DNA from: a virus
Strand: one strand, 5' to 3'
Length of the DNA stretch: 64,000 nucleotides
IMG/VR virus record: IMGVR_UViG_3300034072_000758
Span: 363,030 to 427,029 of that record
Positions 28,364-61,641 of this stretch are shown in pieces (position 1 is the first letter of the stretch; each line of letters begins with the position of its first letter). A program made the translations under genes and the position numbers. Below the pieces are notes generated by a model, which saw nothing but the letters and a program-made list of their open reading frames with translations, did no database searches and was not told where the DNA came from.

Positions 28364-28426
28364 TCGAAGTCTCCTATATTTTGTATTACTCAACTCTACT
28401 ATAAATCCAATAAATGTCAATGTATG

Positions 28427-28455
28427 TTGACAGCATAAAAACAAAATATTATACT
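28427..28455 (+). promoter_or_regulatory. consensus-like promoter
   Basis: TTGACA (28427-28432), 17 bases, TATACT (28450-28455). The predicted +1 coincides with the ATG at 28462. Confidence 0.7.
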
Positions 28456-28461
28456 GCGCCT

Positions 28462-29022
28462 ATGAAAATGATAGATAGTGAAAATCCCGCATCTGTAAAA
28501 TTACAGAAAGACGCATTTGAGTTCGCTGCGACCGCGCACCGTTCGATTAATCAACTGCGTAAGTATACCCAGACGCCGTATGAAGGTCATCCCTTTGCGG
28601 TGGGTCAAATGCTGATCAATCTGGTTCCAGAAGCAACACCGGAAGATGTCGCATCCGCGTATTTACATGACGTGGTTGAAGATACTCCCGTGAAGATCGA
28701 AGAAATCTATGAGAAGTTTGGTCCGGTGGTTGGACAAAACGTTGATGGCTTGACTGACGTAAGCAAGCCAGAAGACGGCAACCGCAAATTCCGTAAGGAA
28801 ATGGACAAAGAACATACTCTGGAACAACCAGTCAATGTTCTGAACATCAAGCTGGTGGACTTTCTTCATAACCAAGAGAGTATCTTGGAATATGACCCGG
28901 ACTTTGCGACCGTGTGGTGTCGTGAAAAGGCCAAGATTATCTTCGATCCGAGGATGGATAAGGCGTCTCCGGTCCTTCTGGAAAAGGCTCGTAACGCATT
29001 CAGGTCGTGGTACAAAGCTTGA
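28462..29022 (+). CDS. HD-domain hydrolase, (p)ppGpp hydrolase-like (SpoT/Mesh1 type)
   Basis: 186 aa. The pattern FAATAHRS, HPFAVGQML, ASAYLHDVVEDT, IYEKFGPVV, VDGLTDV and IKLVDFLHNQESI matches the HD hydrolase part of RelA/SpoT and small Mesh1-like alarmone hydrolases. There is no synthetase domain. If active, it could remove (p)ppGpp and blunt the host stringent response. The start is placed at 28462 (or 28468) because the promoter covers the upstream ATG; no Shine-Dalgarno is present. Confidence 0.75.
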   Translation: MKMIDSENPASVKLQKDAFEFAATAHRSINQLRKYTQTPYEGHPFAVGQMLINLVPEATPEDVASAYLHDVVEDTPVKIEEIYEKFGPVVGQNVDGLTDVSKPEDGNRKFRKEMDKEHTLEQPVNVLNIKLVDFLHNQESILEYDPDFATVWCREKAKIIFDPRMDKASPVLLEKARNAFRSWYKA

Positions 29023-29077: not shown

Positions 29078-29989
29078 ATGGACTATATCTTCGACATCGA
29101 TGGTACTATTGCGGACGTTAAGCACCGCTTACACTTCATCGAGAATGGTAATCGTGACTGGCCGGGGTTCTTCAAGGCCATGATTCACGACTCGCCTATC
29201 GTTGATATGTTTACGATGGCCCATGAATTGAAAAAGGCTGGCGGAAACATTTTGGTTTCGACCGCGCGCCCCGATGACTATCAGCAAGAGACTATCGACT
29301 GGATGGTTGCTTTGGGCTTCCCATACGACAAGCTGTATATGCGCGCGGCTGGTGACTTCCGCCGCGACAGCATTGTCAAGGAAGAACTGCTGTTACAGAT
29401 GGTTCAAGACGGCTATGATCCGAAGGTCGCATTCGATGACAAGGTTAATGTTATCGAAATGTACCGCAACAACGGTCTGATCGCTTTACAGTGCGACGCT
29501 GACGCCGAGAAGATCAGCCCGTATGCTGGTCAAACTCTGCTTCACGTTCTGGTCGGGCCTTCGGGCGCGGGTAAGTCTACGTATATCGCCAAGAACTACA
29601 AGGAAACCGATGTGGTGTCTTCGGACGGCATTCGTCTCTGGTTGTTCGGTGATTTTGATACGGCGCATACCCCGGAAAATTTGAAGCGTACTTGGTCTAC
29701 GGTCTATGCGTTCGTCGCTGCCCGTCTGGCGAATGGTATTTTCACGGTTCTCGATGCGACCAACATCAAGGCCAAGGATCGTCTGGAAGTTTTCAAGCAT
29801 GTCCCCAAGGGCGTTCTCGTGAACTACATTCTGATTGATCGTCCTCTGGATGATAAGCTGCGGGATCGTGGCTGGCGTCCTGAGTCTTTGGTGTTGAAGC
29901 ACCACAAGACTTTCCAGTCGTCCGTTAAGTCGGCTCTGGCTGGGGATGACCGCCCTGACGTGTTCGTATTCGATAAGCGTGAAAAGTAA
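29078..29989 (+). CDS. polynucleotide 3'-phosphatase/5'-kinase with phosphatase-first domain order
   Basis: 303 aa, almost the T4 Pnkp length (301). The N-terminal half is a HAD phosphatase: FDIDGT (Asp6, Asp8), LVSTARPDDY, RRDSIVKEELLL, and FDDKVNVIEMYRNNG, which parallels the T4 phosphatase DDRTQVVEMW segment. The C-terminal half is a P-loop kinase: GPSGAGKST (residues 160-168), SSDGIRLWL carrying the candidate general base, and LDATNIKAKDR. T4 Pnkp has the kinase first, so the order here is reversed, as in animal PNKP. It repairs RNA or DNA ends by inference. TAATG couples it to the next gene. Confidence 0.85.
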   Translation: MDYIFDIDGTIADVKHRLHFIENGNRDWPGFFKAMIHDSPIVDMFTMAHELKKAGGNILVSTARPDDYQQETIDWMVALGFPYDKLYMRAAGDFRRDSIVKEELLLQMVQDGYDPKVAFDDKVNVIEMYRNNGLIALQCDADAEKISPYAGQTLLHVLVGPSGAGKSTYIAKNYKETDVVSSDGIRLWLFGDFDTAHTPENLKRTWSTVYAFVAARLANGIFTVLDATNIKAKDRLEVFKHVPKGVLVNYILIDRPLDDKLRDRGWRPESLVLKHHKTFQSSVKSALAGDDRPDVFVFDKREK

Positions 29990-31143
29990 TGTATATTTCG
30001 CAAGAACAGGTGGATGCCTATCTCGCCAAAGTGGATTTATCCGACAGCGAGAATGGTGTCCACGCCATCAATATCATCAAGGACCGGGTTATTCAGGCAA
30101 TTTCTGAATGGTCCGGCCTTGAACCGGCTGTGATTAATCCAGACCCAATCGTTGAAGTCTCAGATAACTTCGACAATTTGTATTATGACGAGAACGCCAT
30201 CGCGCGTGACCCTCGTTATACGCATTATGTCGATGCTCACCACATTTTCCGTACCCAAATGACATCGGCTATTCCGCCGTTCCTGAGAAAGTACGCCAGA
30301 TCATACACGGGCCTCGACACATCCTTGTTCCTTGCGGCACACGGGCTGGTCTATCGCCGGGATGTTATCGACCGCACCCATGTGGGTGAACCACACCAAT
30401 TGGACCTATGGGTTCTGAATCGGTCGCGCCGCTTGAATCGGAATGATCTGGTGGATATGATCGGTGTGGTTTTGAACACATTGCTTCCCGGCTGTAAATA
30501 TCGTTGTAATGAGACCTATCACCCATACACTATCAATGGTCTCGAAGTTGAAGTGTGGTTTGGTACGGAAAAGACAGGGCGGTGGGTGGAAGTATTAGAA
30601 TGTGGTGAAGCGCACCCTTGGCTTCTGGACGATACCTATATGAACAGCAGACATGACCGTTGGACCGGCCTTGCTATGGGTATCGGTCTGGATCGTCTGT
30701 GTATGCTTCTCAAGGGCATTGATGACATTCGCCTGTTGCGCAGCACGGACCCTCGCGTGGCCGTTCAGATGGCGAACCTTAAGCCGTACAAGGGAGTCAG
30801 TAAGCAACCGGCCATCAACCGCGATATGTCTCTGTGCGTTCAAGAAGTCGATATGGAAAATATCGGCGGTCGTGTCCGTGAGGCTCTTGGCGAGCGCGCC
30901 GATTGGTTGGAAGAAATCGAGCTTCGTAAGGATTTCTCTTATGATGAAATACCCGATCAGGCGCGGGAGCGTCTGGGTATCCAACCGGGTCAGCGCAATA
31001 TTCTGTTGCGTTTGATCCTGCGTTCCCCCACCGATAGCATTCCCAAAGAAATTGGGAATGAAATTTATGACATCGTATACCGAGTCATTAACGAAGGAGC
31101 CGGGGGATACGAAATAAAATACTCTGGAAAAGGAAAAGAATAA
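29989..31143 (+). CDS. phenylalanyl-tRNA synthetase-like protein (PheS core plus FDX-ACB domain)
   Basis: 384 aa. Class II aminoacyl-tRNA synthetase of PheRS type. Motif 2 is YRRDVIDRTHVGEPHQLD (from residue 122), paralleling the PheS R-D-x-x-D-x-x-H pattern. Motif 3 is GLAMGIGLDRLCMLLKGIDD (from about 227). From about residue 267, YKGVSKQPAINRDMSLCV opens a ferredoxin-fold anticodon-binding domain, normally at the PheT C terminus. This is the monomeric layout of mitochondrial PheRS. Whether it charges tRNA-Phe is untested; the window also holds two tRNA-Phe(GAA) genes. Confidence 0.85.
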   Translation: MYISQEQVDAYLAKVDLSDSENGVHAINIIKDRVIQAISEWSGLEPAVINPDPIVEVSDNFDNLYYDENAIARDPRYTHYVDAHHIFRTQMTSAIPPFLRKYARSYTGLDTSLFLAAHGLVYRRDVIDRTHVGEPHQLDLWVLNRSRRLNRNDLVDMIGVVLNTLLPGCKYRCNETYHPYTINGLEVEVWFGTEKTGRWVEVLECGEAHPWLLDDTYMNSRHDRWTGLAMGIGLDRLCMLLKGIDDIRLLRSTDPRVAVQMANLKPYKGVSKQPAINRDMSLCVQEVDMENIGGRVREALGERADWLEEIELRKDFSYDEIPDQARERLGIQPGQRNILLRLILRSPTDSIPKEIGNEIYDIVYRVINEGAGGYEIKYSGKGKE

Positions 31144-31978: not shown

Positions 31979-32710
31979 ATGAGTAATACTTTAGTAACCG
32001 CATGGTTTGATATTGGTAGAGTAAATTGGAACCAACACTCAAGAAGCGCGGAAGAATATATCGACCGATTTTCTAATCTAGCAAAGCTAGATACCAATTT
32101 GATAATTTACACTACCCGCAATTACGCGGGTAGACTTGAGAAGATCAGAGCCGATAACGGATTCTCGAATTTGACGAAAGTTGTAATCGTTGAATTTCCC
32201 GATCCAAAGTACGCCGATATATTAAAAGCTATTGAAGAAACCCAACAACATCCTGATTTCACTAAGCATTTAATGGCTGATGTTACAGGTCTCCCTCAGT
32301 ATCAATATCCCGAATACGTGCTCGTTACTACCCTCAAGTCCTCATTCGTGGCGGATGCCATTGAACGTGGGTTAGTAACCACCGAACATGCCACTTGGGT
32401 AGATTTCGGCTTCATGGTGACACCATCAACTGAACTGGTTATCCCACCATTGTATCCTGAGCATATTTCAGCTTTTCCGCTCGAAGAAATCGCGGACCCG
32501 GATGCGTTCATTTATGACTCTATCGTCAATGCGTATTCAACACCGTCCACCAAATTATTCACAGCCCCGGTAACCATGTGGCGTTCATTATCAGATGAAA
32601 TGCTTATTGCTTTGGAACTGGTGCTTGAAAATGGAATGGTGGCCAAAGATACCGTTCTGTTTTCCATTTGTAACATTAAATTCCCGCATGTTTTTGAGAG
32701 CAATCGATAA
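31979..32710 (+). CDS. HtrL/YibB-like protein (putative glycosyltransferase fold)
   Basis: 243 aa. The N terminus LVTAWFDIGRVNWNQHSRS, then EEYIDRFSNLAKLDTNLIIYT and later ATWVDFGF, match the HtrL/YibB family. That family is linked to polysaccharide loci and thought to be glycosyltransferase-like. Shorter than typical members. First gene of a four- or five-gene sugar-related run; TAATG coupling to the next. Confidence 0.65.
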   Translation: MSNTLVTAWFDIGRVNWNQHSRSAEEYIDRFSNLAKLDTNLIIYTTRNYAGRLEKIRADNGFSNLTKVVIVEFPDPKYADILKAIEETQQHPDFTKHLMADVTGLPQYQYPEYVLVTTLKSSFVADAIERGLVTTEHATWVDFGFMVTPSTELVIPPLYPEHISAFPLEEIADPDAFIYDSIVNAYSTPSTKLFTAPVTMWRSLSDEMLIALELVLENGMVAKDTVLFSICNIKFPHVFESNR

Positions 32711-34086
32711 TGAATAAGCTTGTAATATTTGATCTTGACGGTGTTTTGCTTGATAGCCGAGAACTCCATTATGAATCGCTCAACGCGGCCTTAGCCAAGG
32801 TTGGCCAAGAATATATCATCACCCGCGACGAACACCTGAGCCTGTACGATGGCCTCAACACCACGAAGAAGCTTCGTATGCTCACCGAGCGTAAGGGCCT
32901 CCCAGCGGGCTTACACCAGCAAGTATGGGAAGACAAGCAAGCGGCCACCTTTGACCTGATCAAGCGCTTCCCACTGTCTCCCAAGGCCGTACAAGCGTGT
33001 CAGGAGATTAAGAAACGCGGCTGGAAGATCGCCGTGGCCTCCAACAGCATCCGCGAGACTGTAAAGCTGGCTTTGATGGCTATTGGTATCATGGAATATG
33101 TAGACGTGTTCGTAAGCAACGAAGACGTGACCCGGACGAAGCCTTACCCGGAAATGTATTGGCAAGCTATGACCAAATTGAACGCCTTGCCCCGCAACAC
33201 CATCATCTGTGAAGACTCACACATTGGCCGACAAGGCGCGCTGGATTCGGGTGCTAATCTGTTACCTATCGAAAATTCAGAGACTTGGACCGTCTCTGAC
33301 ATAACAAATCTTATTCAAGAAGTGGAAAACAAATCTATGGAACGCATTGCGTGGATTGATAAAAAGCTCAACGTTCTTATCCCGATGGCGGGCGCTGGAT
33401 CGCGCTTCGCCGATGCGGGCTATACCTTCCCTAAGCCTCTGATCGAGGTCCGTGGTAAGCCGATGATACAAGTGGTCGTTGAGAATCTTAACATACAAGC
33501 TAATTATATTTTCGTGGTCCAGAAAGCGCACTATGAAAAATATGATCTGGAACATGTGCTGAATAACATTGCCCCCGGCTGTAAGATTATTCAGACCGAT
33601 GGCTTGACCGAAGGCGCTGCCTGTACTGCCCTGCTGGCCAAGGAATATATCGACAACGATGCCCCGCTGTTTTTTGCCAACTCGGATCAATTTGTGGAAT
33701 GGAACAGCAATGAAGTCCTGTATGCCTTCAACGCGGATGGGATCGACGGTGGTATCGTTACGTTCGATGCCAATCACCCGAAATGGTCTTATGCCAAGGT
33801 AGGCGAAGATGGTTTTGTTTCGGAAGTTGCTGAGAAGAAAGTAATCTCCAACGATGCTACGGTCGGCTTCTATTGGTGGAAACAAGGTTCGGATTTTGTA
33901 AAATATGCCGAACAAATGATAGAAAAGAATATCCGTGTCAACAATGAGTTCTATGTTTGCCCGGTATTTAATCAGGCTATCGAAGACGGTAAGAAGATTC
34001 GTGTCAAGAAGACCGATGGTATGTGGGGGATCGGAACGCCGGAAGACCTCAACACCTTCTTGGAAAACTACAAGGGTAAAATTTAA
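32710..34086 (+). CDS. fusion: HAD phosphatase plus sugar-phosphate nucleotidyltransferase
   Basis: 458 aa. Residues 1-200 form a beta-phosphoglucomutase-type HAD domain (FDLDGVLLDS, VASNS, KPYPEMY, CEDSHIG). From about residue 220, an NTP-transferase domain has the nucleotide-binding loop IPMAGAGSRFADAGYTFPKP and a later ANSDQFVEW metal-binding segment. The combination would make or remodel an activated sugar (NDP-sugar). Exact sugar unknown. Downstream genes look like glycan transfer or hydrolysis enzymes. Confidence 0.85.
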   Translation: MNKLVIFDLDGVLLDSRELHYESLNAALAKVGQEYIITRDEHLSLYDGLNTTKKLRMLTERKGLPAGLHQQVWEDKQAATFDLIKRFPLSPKAVQACQEIKKRGWKIAVASNSIRETVKLALMAIGIMEYVDVFVSNEDVTRTKPYPEMYWQAMTKLNALPRNTIICEDSHIGRQGALDSGANLLPIENSETWTVSDITNLIQEVENKSMERIAWIDKKLNVLIPMAGAGSRFADAGYTFPKPLIEVRGKPMIQVVVENLNIQANYIFVVQKAHYEKYDLEHVLNNIAPGCKIIQTDGLTEGAACTALLAKEYIDNDAPLFFANSDQFVEWNSNEVLYAFNADGIDGGIVTFDANHPKWSYAKVGEDGFVSEVAEKKVISNDATVGFYWWKQGSDFVKYAEQMIEKNIRVNNEFYVCPVFNQAIEDGKKIRVKKTDGMWGIGTPEDLNTFLENYKGKI

Positions 34087-61320: not shown

Positions 61321-61392
61321 GCCACGATAGCTGAGAAGGATTAGCGGCTGTCTGAAAAGCAGTAGAGAGACGTTCGATACGTCTTCGTGGCA
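61321..61392 (+). tRNA. tRNA-Phe (anticodon GAA), unusual copy
   Basis: GCCACGA/TCGTGGC acceptor, T arm AGACG-TTCGATA-CGTCT, anticodon loop CTGAAAA in a stem with two G-T pairs. CCA not encoded. The D arm is AT/GA-rich and unlike the other copy at 61566. Confidence 0.75.
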
Positions 61393-61393
61393 C

Positions 61394-61565: not shown

Positions 61566-61639
61566 GTAGCCGTAGCTCAGTCTGGTAGAGCATCTGGTTG
61601 AAACCCAGAGTGTCAGTGGTTCAAATCCACTCGGTTACA
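61566..61639 (+). tRNA. tRNA-Phe (anticodon GAA)
   Basis: GTAGCCG/CGGTTAC acceptor, perfect TCTGG/CCAGA anticodon stem around TTGAAAC, T loop TTCAAAT. CCA not encoded. Possible substrate of the PheRS-like protein. Confidence 0.9.
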
Positions 61640-61641
61640 CT

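Follow-up and report, generated by a model that had tools for sequence, protein, structure and literature searches.

The analyzed window is a stretch of 64,000 nucleotides within a 516,805-base virus record. On its plus strand, at positions 29989-31143, lies srmL, which encodes a 384-aa PheS-related ligase with a class II core and an FDX-ACB domain. The assignment is based on the open reading frame, a family match and an AlphaFold (AF2) model. With NF051887, the NCBIfam model named 'PheS-related mystery ligase SrmL', the product scores 416.3 bits against a curated equivalog cut-off of 300, and the alignment covers positions 3-349 of 349. The scores obtained with the PheS model TIGR00468 (95.7 bits; cut-off, 237.45) and the pheS_mito model TIGR00469 (114.3 bits; cut-off, 258.35) were below the cut-offs. 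With a score above the SrmL cut-off, the protein does not count as a phage PheRS without a family. No published function for NF051887 or SrmL was found in a literature search, and no paper on a monomeric bacterial or phage PheRS was found in the open literature. NCBIfam already names the family; as far as could be found, its presence in huge phages, the placing of srmL around tRNA-Phe genes and the family-wide change of the pocket are new.

The gene directly before srmL encodes a polynucleotide kinase-phosphatase (PNK; HAD_PNKP and AAA_33) at about 29078-29989 on the plus strand. Its end overlaps the start of srmL in a TAATG, confirming what the preliminary description had reported. From this arrangement, it had been proposed that the phage repairs and recharges its tRNA. 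In the other viral loci examined, no PNK gene was found near srmL, and the pairing is seen only in the window phage; elsewhere in the sequence, five of the six viral records that carry srmL do encode an RNA ligase of the T4 type. Since the PNK neighbour is not conserved, the coupling of repair and recharging is weak and not supported. A conserved PNK-srmL operon was also considered and was rejected, as the two genes are neighbours in this phage only. An HD_4 phosphohydrolase gene is located at 28414-29022 of the window and is also found near srmL in two sister phages (loci L002 and L040; 33-37% identity). Downstream, at 31979-34086, the window encodes an HtrL_YibB-like protein and an HAD hydrolase fused to a nucleotidyltransferase.

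The class II PheS core was detected in the window protein with PF01409 (2.8e-31). The FDX-ACB domain, of the anticodon-binding type, corresponds to residues 271-366 (30799-31086, plus strand). PF03147, the Pfam model of this domain, was found at the C-terminal segment in all 38 SrmL members scanned (best, 2.1e-10); with the window protein alone it gave 9.4e-4 and 20 bits, under the Pfam cut-off of 31.1. When the isolated C-domain was modelled (pLDDT 85), its Foldseek matches in the PDB were the C-terminal domain of the PheRS beta-subunit and FARS2. The full AF2 model (pLDDT 91, pTM 0.87) matched human mitochondrial PheRS (mtPheRS; 5mgv) over the full length, with 412 columns, an E-value of 1.6e-24 and a TMq of 0.73. 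Furthermore, mtPheRS was the top match of the SrmL profile in the PDB (2.4e-36), and this alignment extends into the C-domain of mtPheRS. The profile also touches SepRS (4.5e-5) and PylRS (9e-4). Judging from the sequence and the model, SrmL would be of the monomeric, mitochondrial type: a single chain with a class II core and FDX-ACB, without an editing domain. Thus, with the core, the C-domain and the full-length match to mtPheRS taken together, the single-chain layout claimed earlier holds, and so does the assignment of a PheS-type core with motifs 2 and 3 followed by FDX-ACB.

The active site was analyzed in an alignment of 41 SrmL, 14 PheS and human mtPheRS. The motif 2 region, residues 119-141 (G-L-V-Y-R-R-D ... 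H-V-G-E-P-H-Q-x-D-x-W), is encoded at 30343-30411, and motif 3, G227-L-A-M-G-I-G-L-D-R236, at 30667-30696, both on the plus strand. The catalytic residues R123, Q137 and R236 are retained in comparison with the PheS and mtPheRS sequences. Q137 is the equivalent of PheRS Gln218, and R236 is the class II ATP-binding Arg; with R123 and R236, the window protein has the catalytic arginines of both motifs. H178, Y180, T181, E204, H131-Q137, D139, W141 and R236 are invariant in 41/41 SrmL. R123 is kept in 40 of the 41, the remaining row being gapped there. Positions 90 and 92 vary (H/Q and S/T, respectively). A229, at the position that sets the tolerance for para-substituents, is retained.

The side-chain and adenine pockets of SrmL are unlike those of every PheRS compared. 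H178-P-Y180-T181 (30520-30531, plus strand) is located at the site of the substrate-ring motif Phe258-Pro-Phe260 of PheRS. F-P-F is present in all 14 PheS and in human mtPheRS, whereas H-x-Y is found across SrmL. E204-C-G (30598-30606, plus strand) is placed where PheRS has G-C-G as the floor of the Phe pocket, and E204 is present in 41/41 SrmL versus Gly in 14/14 PheS. In the adenine pocket, the adenine-stacking Phe (PheRS Phe216) is replaced by P135 and Glu220 by D139; for both residues, the role referred to is that in Thermus PheRS. Phe recognition is based on the Phe258/Phe260 pair and the glycine floor, and in human cytosolic PheRS, Asn410/Tyr412/Phe438 replace this pair (Klipcan et al., PMC3275996). 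SrmL has neither aromatic pair (Phe258/Phe260 or Tyr412/Phe438) nor the glycine floor: it has H178/Y180, Glu for Gly, and a non-aromatic residue at the Phe438 site.

The N-P-Y replacement in human cytosolic PheRS was confirmed by sequence, and Asn434 of this enzyme is at the position of the SrmL Glu. Human cytosolic PheRS is therefore like SrmL at two places, but SrmL is without the aromatic at the Phe438 site and has Glu for Asn434. Since the human enzyme with N-P-Y and Asn still uses Phe, the pocket change alone cannot exclude Phe, and we rejected H-x-Y as proof against this amino acid. Equally, since the pocket is rebuilt throughout the family, Phe charging cannot be assumed. Judged from these residues, Phe is a plausible substrate of SrmL. 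The preliminary description had made its PheRS assignment depend on two features of the alignment, and the outcome is split. The arginines of motifs 2 and 3 are intact, but throughout the family the pocket for the amino acid has changed, with H-x-Y for FPF, Glu for Gly, Pro for Phe216 and Asp for Glu220.

The viral relatives are IMG/VR records of 578, 415, 508 and 181 kb, plus LR745206 (635 kb). The viral collection was scanned twice by alignment and once with a motif, and these scans gave only the four IMG/VR loci besides the window record. The 181-kb contig (IMGVR_UViG_3300047323_000673) may not be a huge phage: it carries srmL and tmRNA, has almost none of the other viral synthetase families, and has no tRNA genes near srmL. 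Bacterial srmL was found on 33 contigs, mostly of Actinomycetota; in Micrococcales, 9 of 297 genomes were over the family cut-off. Plasmid copies occur in Azotobacter and Glutamicibacter, and there is a partial match in Corynebacterium diphtheriae. The latter lies on plasmid OV884290, with erm(X) on one side and a tet gene on the other. An ordinary PheS is also present in all 13 srmL-bearing bacterial genomes tested, and general Phe charging in these bacteria therefore does not require SrmL. In the six viral records, no PheS scored above the cut-off. Beside bacterial srmL, neither a conserved neighbour nor a dedicated tRNA was found; high counts in the table of bacterial neighbour clusters are shadow ORFs of srmL itself. 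A pattern search gave at most one tRNA-Phe per srmL-bearing bacterial genome and missed tRNA-Phe altogether in many, so the search has no bearing on an extra tRNA-Phe.

In the core tree, 41 SrmL from huge phages, plasmids and bacteria form one side of a branch, apart from PheS (100/99). The window copy groups with two phage copies and a Roseinatronobacter gene (99/95). Human mtPheRS is on a separate long branch. Thus, in relation to bacterial PheS and human mtPheRS, SrmL is a clade of its own. As to whether SrmL and mtPheRS share a fusion, the C-domain profile alone is too weak a signal.

Two tRNA-Phe(GAA) genes are present on the plus strand of the window, as detected by ARAGORN: a divergent copy at 61321-61393 and a second copy with a T32/C38 anticodon loop (TTGAAAC) at 61566-61640. 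As stated in the preliminary description, the two differ strongly from each other. They are about 30 kb from srmL. The placing is closer in the sister phages. In the 415-kb phage, a stretch with 31 tRNAs has just two tRNA-Phe genes, and srmL lies between them; in the 578-kb phage, it closes the tRNA array just after tRNA-Phe and tRNA-Val. The earlier reading is thus upheld in part, as to the monomeric layout of the mitochondrial type and the tie to tRNA-Phe, and the sister phages speak for this tie more strongly than the window does. The strongest pointer to tRNA-Phe as the presumed acceptor comes from two related sister phages, in a pattern seen after the fact.

In the 508-kb phage, srmL comes after the SerRS and mini-HisRS genes in a cluster of synthetase and tRNA genes. 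The stretch around srmL also includes AspRS, ProRS (375 aa), GlnRS, ValRS (516 aa), LysRS, TrpRS (244 aa), a GlyRS-like 266-aa ORF and TyrRS. The tRNA nearest to srmL is tRNA-Glu, at 2.6 kb. The cognate tRNA is the nearest one for four of ten synthetase genes, a number reached in 43 of 20,000 label shuffles. In this phage (loci L097 and L041), the cognate tRNA is directly followed by the synthetase gene for ProRS, GlnRS, LysRS and SerRS, and several synthetases are compact, being shorter than expected for forms with an editing domain.

The window phage has 59 Rfam matches to tRNA; ARAGORN detected 57 tRNAs in the scanned stretches, and all 20 amino acids are covered. At least eight other synthetases, several of them compact, are encoded: ThrRS, SerRS, a HisRS core (184 aa), ValRS (506 aa), TrpRS, GluRS, CysRS and AspRS. 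Other synthetases were found in five of the six viral records. The 184-aa HisRS-like ORF (L090:12558-13109, minus strand; record 352558-353109) is outside the window, consists of the class II core only and adjoins two tRNA-His genes. To our knowledge, no HisRS is smaller. Each of the four remaining huge-phage records that carry srmL has a matching ORF, of 186-218 aa (including L041:7351-7983 and L103:10404-11057). Also outside the window, the family match of GluRS (L083:6979-8646, minus strand) starts at residue 112 of 556, so that about 110 residues precede it as an N-terminal extension. At record positions 117291-117364 (outside the window), ARAGORN further detected a tRNA whose anticodon is CTA and which it labels as Pyl; this tRNA is possibly an amber suppressor.

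With moderate confidence, we propose that SrmL is a compact, single-chain tRNA-Phe synthetase in a phage-carried translation kit, with Phe as the most likely amino acid. Since each of the 20 amino acids has a tRNA in this phage and at least eight other synthetases are encoded, the slot of PheRS is most probably taken by SrmL. The enzyme would be a PheRS-type aminoacyl-tRNA synthetase without editing. In a class II site like that of mitochondrial PheRS, it would use ATP to activate an amino acid, with Phe as the likeliest one; the FDX-ACB domain would bind tRNA-Phe, which SrmL would then charge. Within the kit that the phage brings along, comprising tRNAs for 20 amino acids and several streamlined synthetases, SrmL would serve Phe, and it may keep Phe-tRNA available if the supply of host tRNA or PheST is limiting or inactivated. 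We infer Phe as the amino acid and, likewise, the benefit to the phage. The family-wide rebuilding of the pocket and the separation of SrmL from PheS by NCBI count against a role as a Phe synthetase, as do the 30 kb between srmL and the tRNA-Phe genes of the window, the tRNA-Glu nearest to srmL in the 508-kb phage and the PheS already present in the bacterial genomes tested.

The rebuilt pocket and the separation from PheS are consistent with a tRNA-dependent ligase in which the PheRS scaffold and FDX-ACB would load a polar or other non-Phe amino acid, or an analogue, on tRNA-Phe or another tRNA. The invariant H178, Y180 and E204 would make a polar pocket in place of the aromatic pair and glycine floor of PheRS, the bacterial genomes tested already have an ordinary PheS, and SepRS and PylRS, both touched by the SrmL profile, arose from the same scaffold. 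However, human cytosolic PheRS uses Phe with N-P-Y and Asn at the same sites, the Ala at the para-position is retained, the phage copies lie within ordinary arrays of synthetase and tRNA genes, and mischarged tRNA-Phe would be toxic unless controlled. We consider such a ligase rather unlikely. That SrmL charges tRNA-Phe, or one of the divergent tRNA-Phe copies of the phage, with something other than Phe, as a new specificity common to huge phages and scattered bacteria, is somewhat less likely still.

SrmL could also be an accessory PheRS, spread by mobile elements, that is resistant where the resident PheST is inhibited or modified, with MupA and IleRS as the parallel; phages would carry it to bypass a blocked host PheRS. 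The sporadic occurrence (9/297 Micrococcales genomes), the intact PheS alongside wherever tested, the lack of a conserved bacterial neighbour and the plasmid copies, two of which have resistance genes nearby, are consistent with this idea, and the changed sites are exactly the ATP and Phe pockets hit by PheRS inhibitors. Nevertheless, no biosynthetic or resistance cluster consistently co-occurs, the plasmid neighbours may be due to chance, and the C. diphtheriae copy matches only partly. Resistance is improbable in our view, and it is compatible with a tRNA-Phe synthetase rather than exclusive of it. Finally, SrmL may not charge tRNA at all. It may be a tRNA-binding regulator or a decoy, or it may ligate an amino acid to an acceptor other than tRNA, as several aaRS paralogues do (PMC9437257). 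Loss of the adenine-stacking Phe and the change of Glu220 to Asp could impair adenylate formation. Against this, SrmL conserves the arginines of motifs 2 and 3 together with the Gln218 equivalent and many residues of the core, the tRNA-binding domain is kept in all members scanned, and the phage copies are embedded in tRNA and synthetase arrays. A non-charging SrmL is thus very doubtful. The decoy role raised in the preliminary description appears unlikely because the catalytic and tRNA-domain residues are invariant.

SrmL, as a compact tRNA-Phe synthetase candidate, is a small, testable enzyme for specificity studies and could settle the role of the 'mystery ligase' of NCBI; the placing of srmL around tRNA-Phe in sister phages hints at its tRNA. 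A prokaryotic and phage family with the one-chain layout of mitochondrial PheRS also bears on the origin of that layout. The window copy shares all signature residues of NF051887, which was known only as a family annotated without a function, and the copies in the window and in the sister phages come from huge phages rich in genes for tRNAs and synthetases. Al-Shayeb et al. (2020; PMC7162821) reported huge phages with as many as 67 tRNAs and 15 synthetases. The srmL carriers are of the same size class, and a single-chain enzyme of the PheRS type is not described in the main-text passages covered. A description from 2010 (PMC3275996) had mitochondrial PheRS as the one enzyme known to carry this class II catalytic module in monomeric form. 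Like SrmL, mitochondrial PheRS (FARS2; 3cmq, 3tup and 5mgh) is one chain in which a PheS core is followed by FDX-ACB (B8), without an editing domain. The two differ in that the identity is about 22%, FPF/GCG is replaced by H-x-Y/ECG and the adenine-stacking Phe by Pro, and they are on separate branches. Bacterial PheRS (PheS and PheT) has a PheS core related to that of SrmL, and the SrmL C-domain is related to the end of PheT. Unlike bacterial PheRS, SrmL is one chain and has no coiled-coil arm, B3/B4 editing domain or separate beta subunit.
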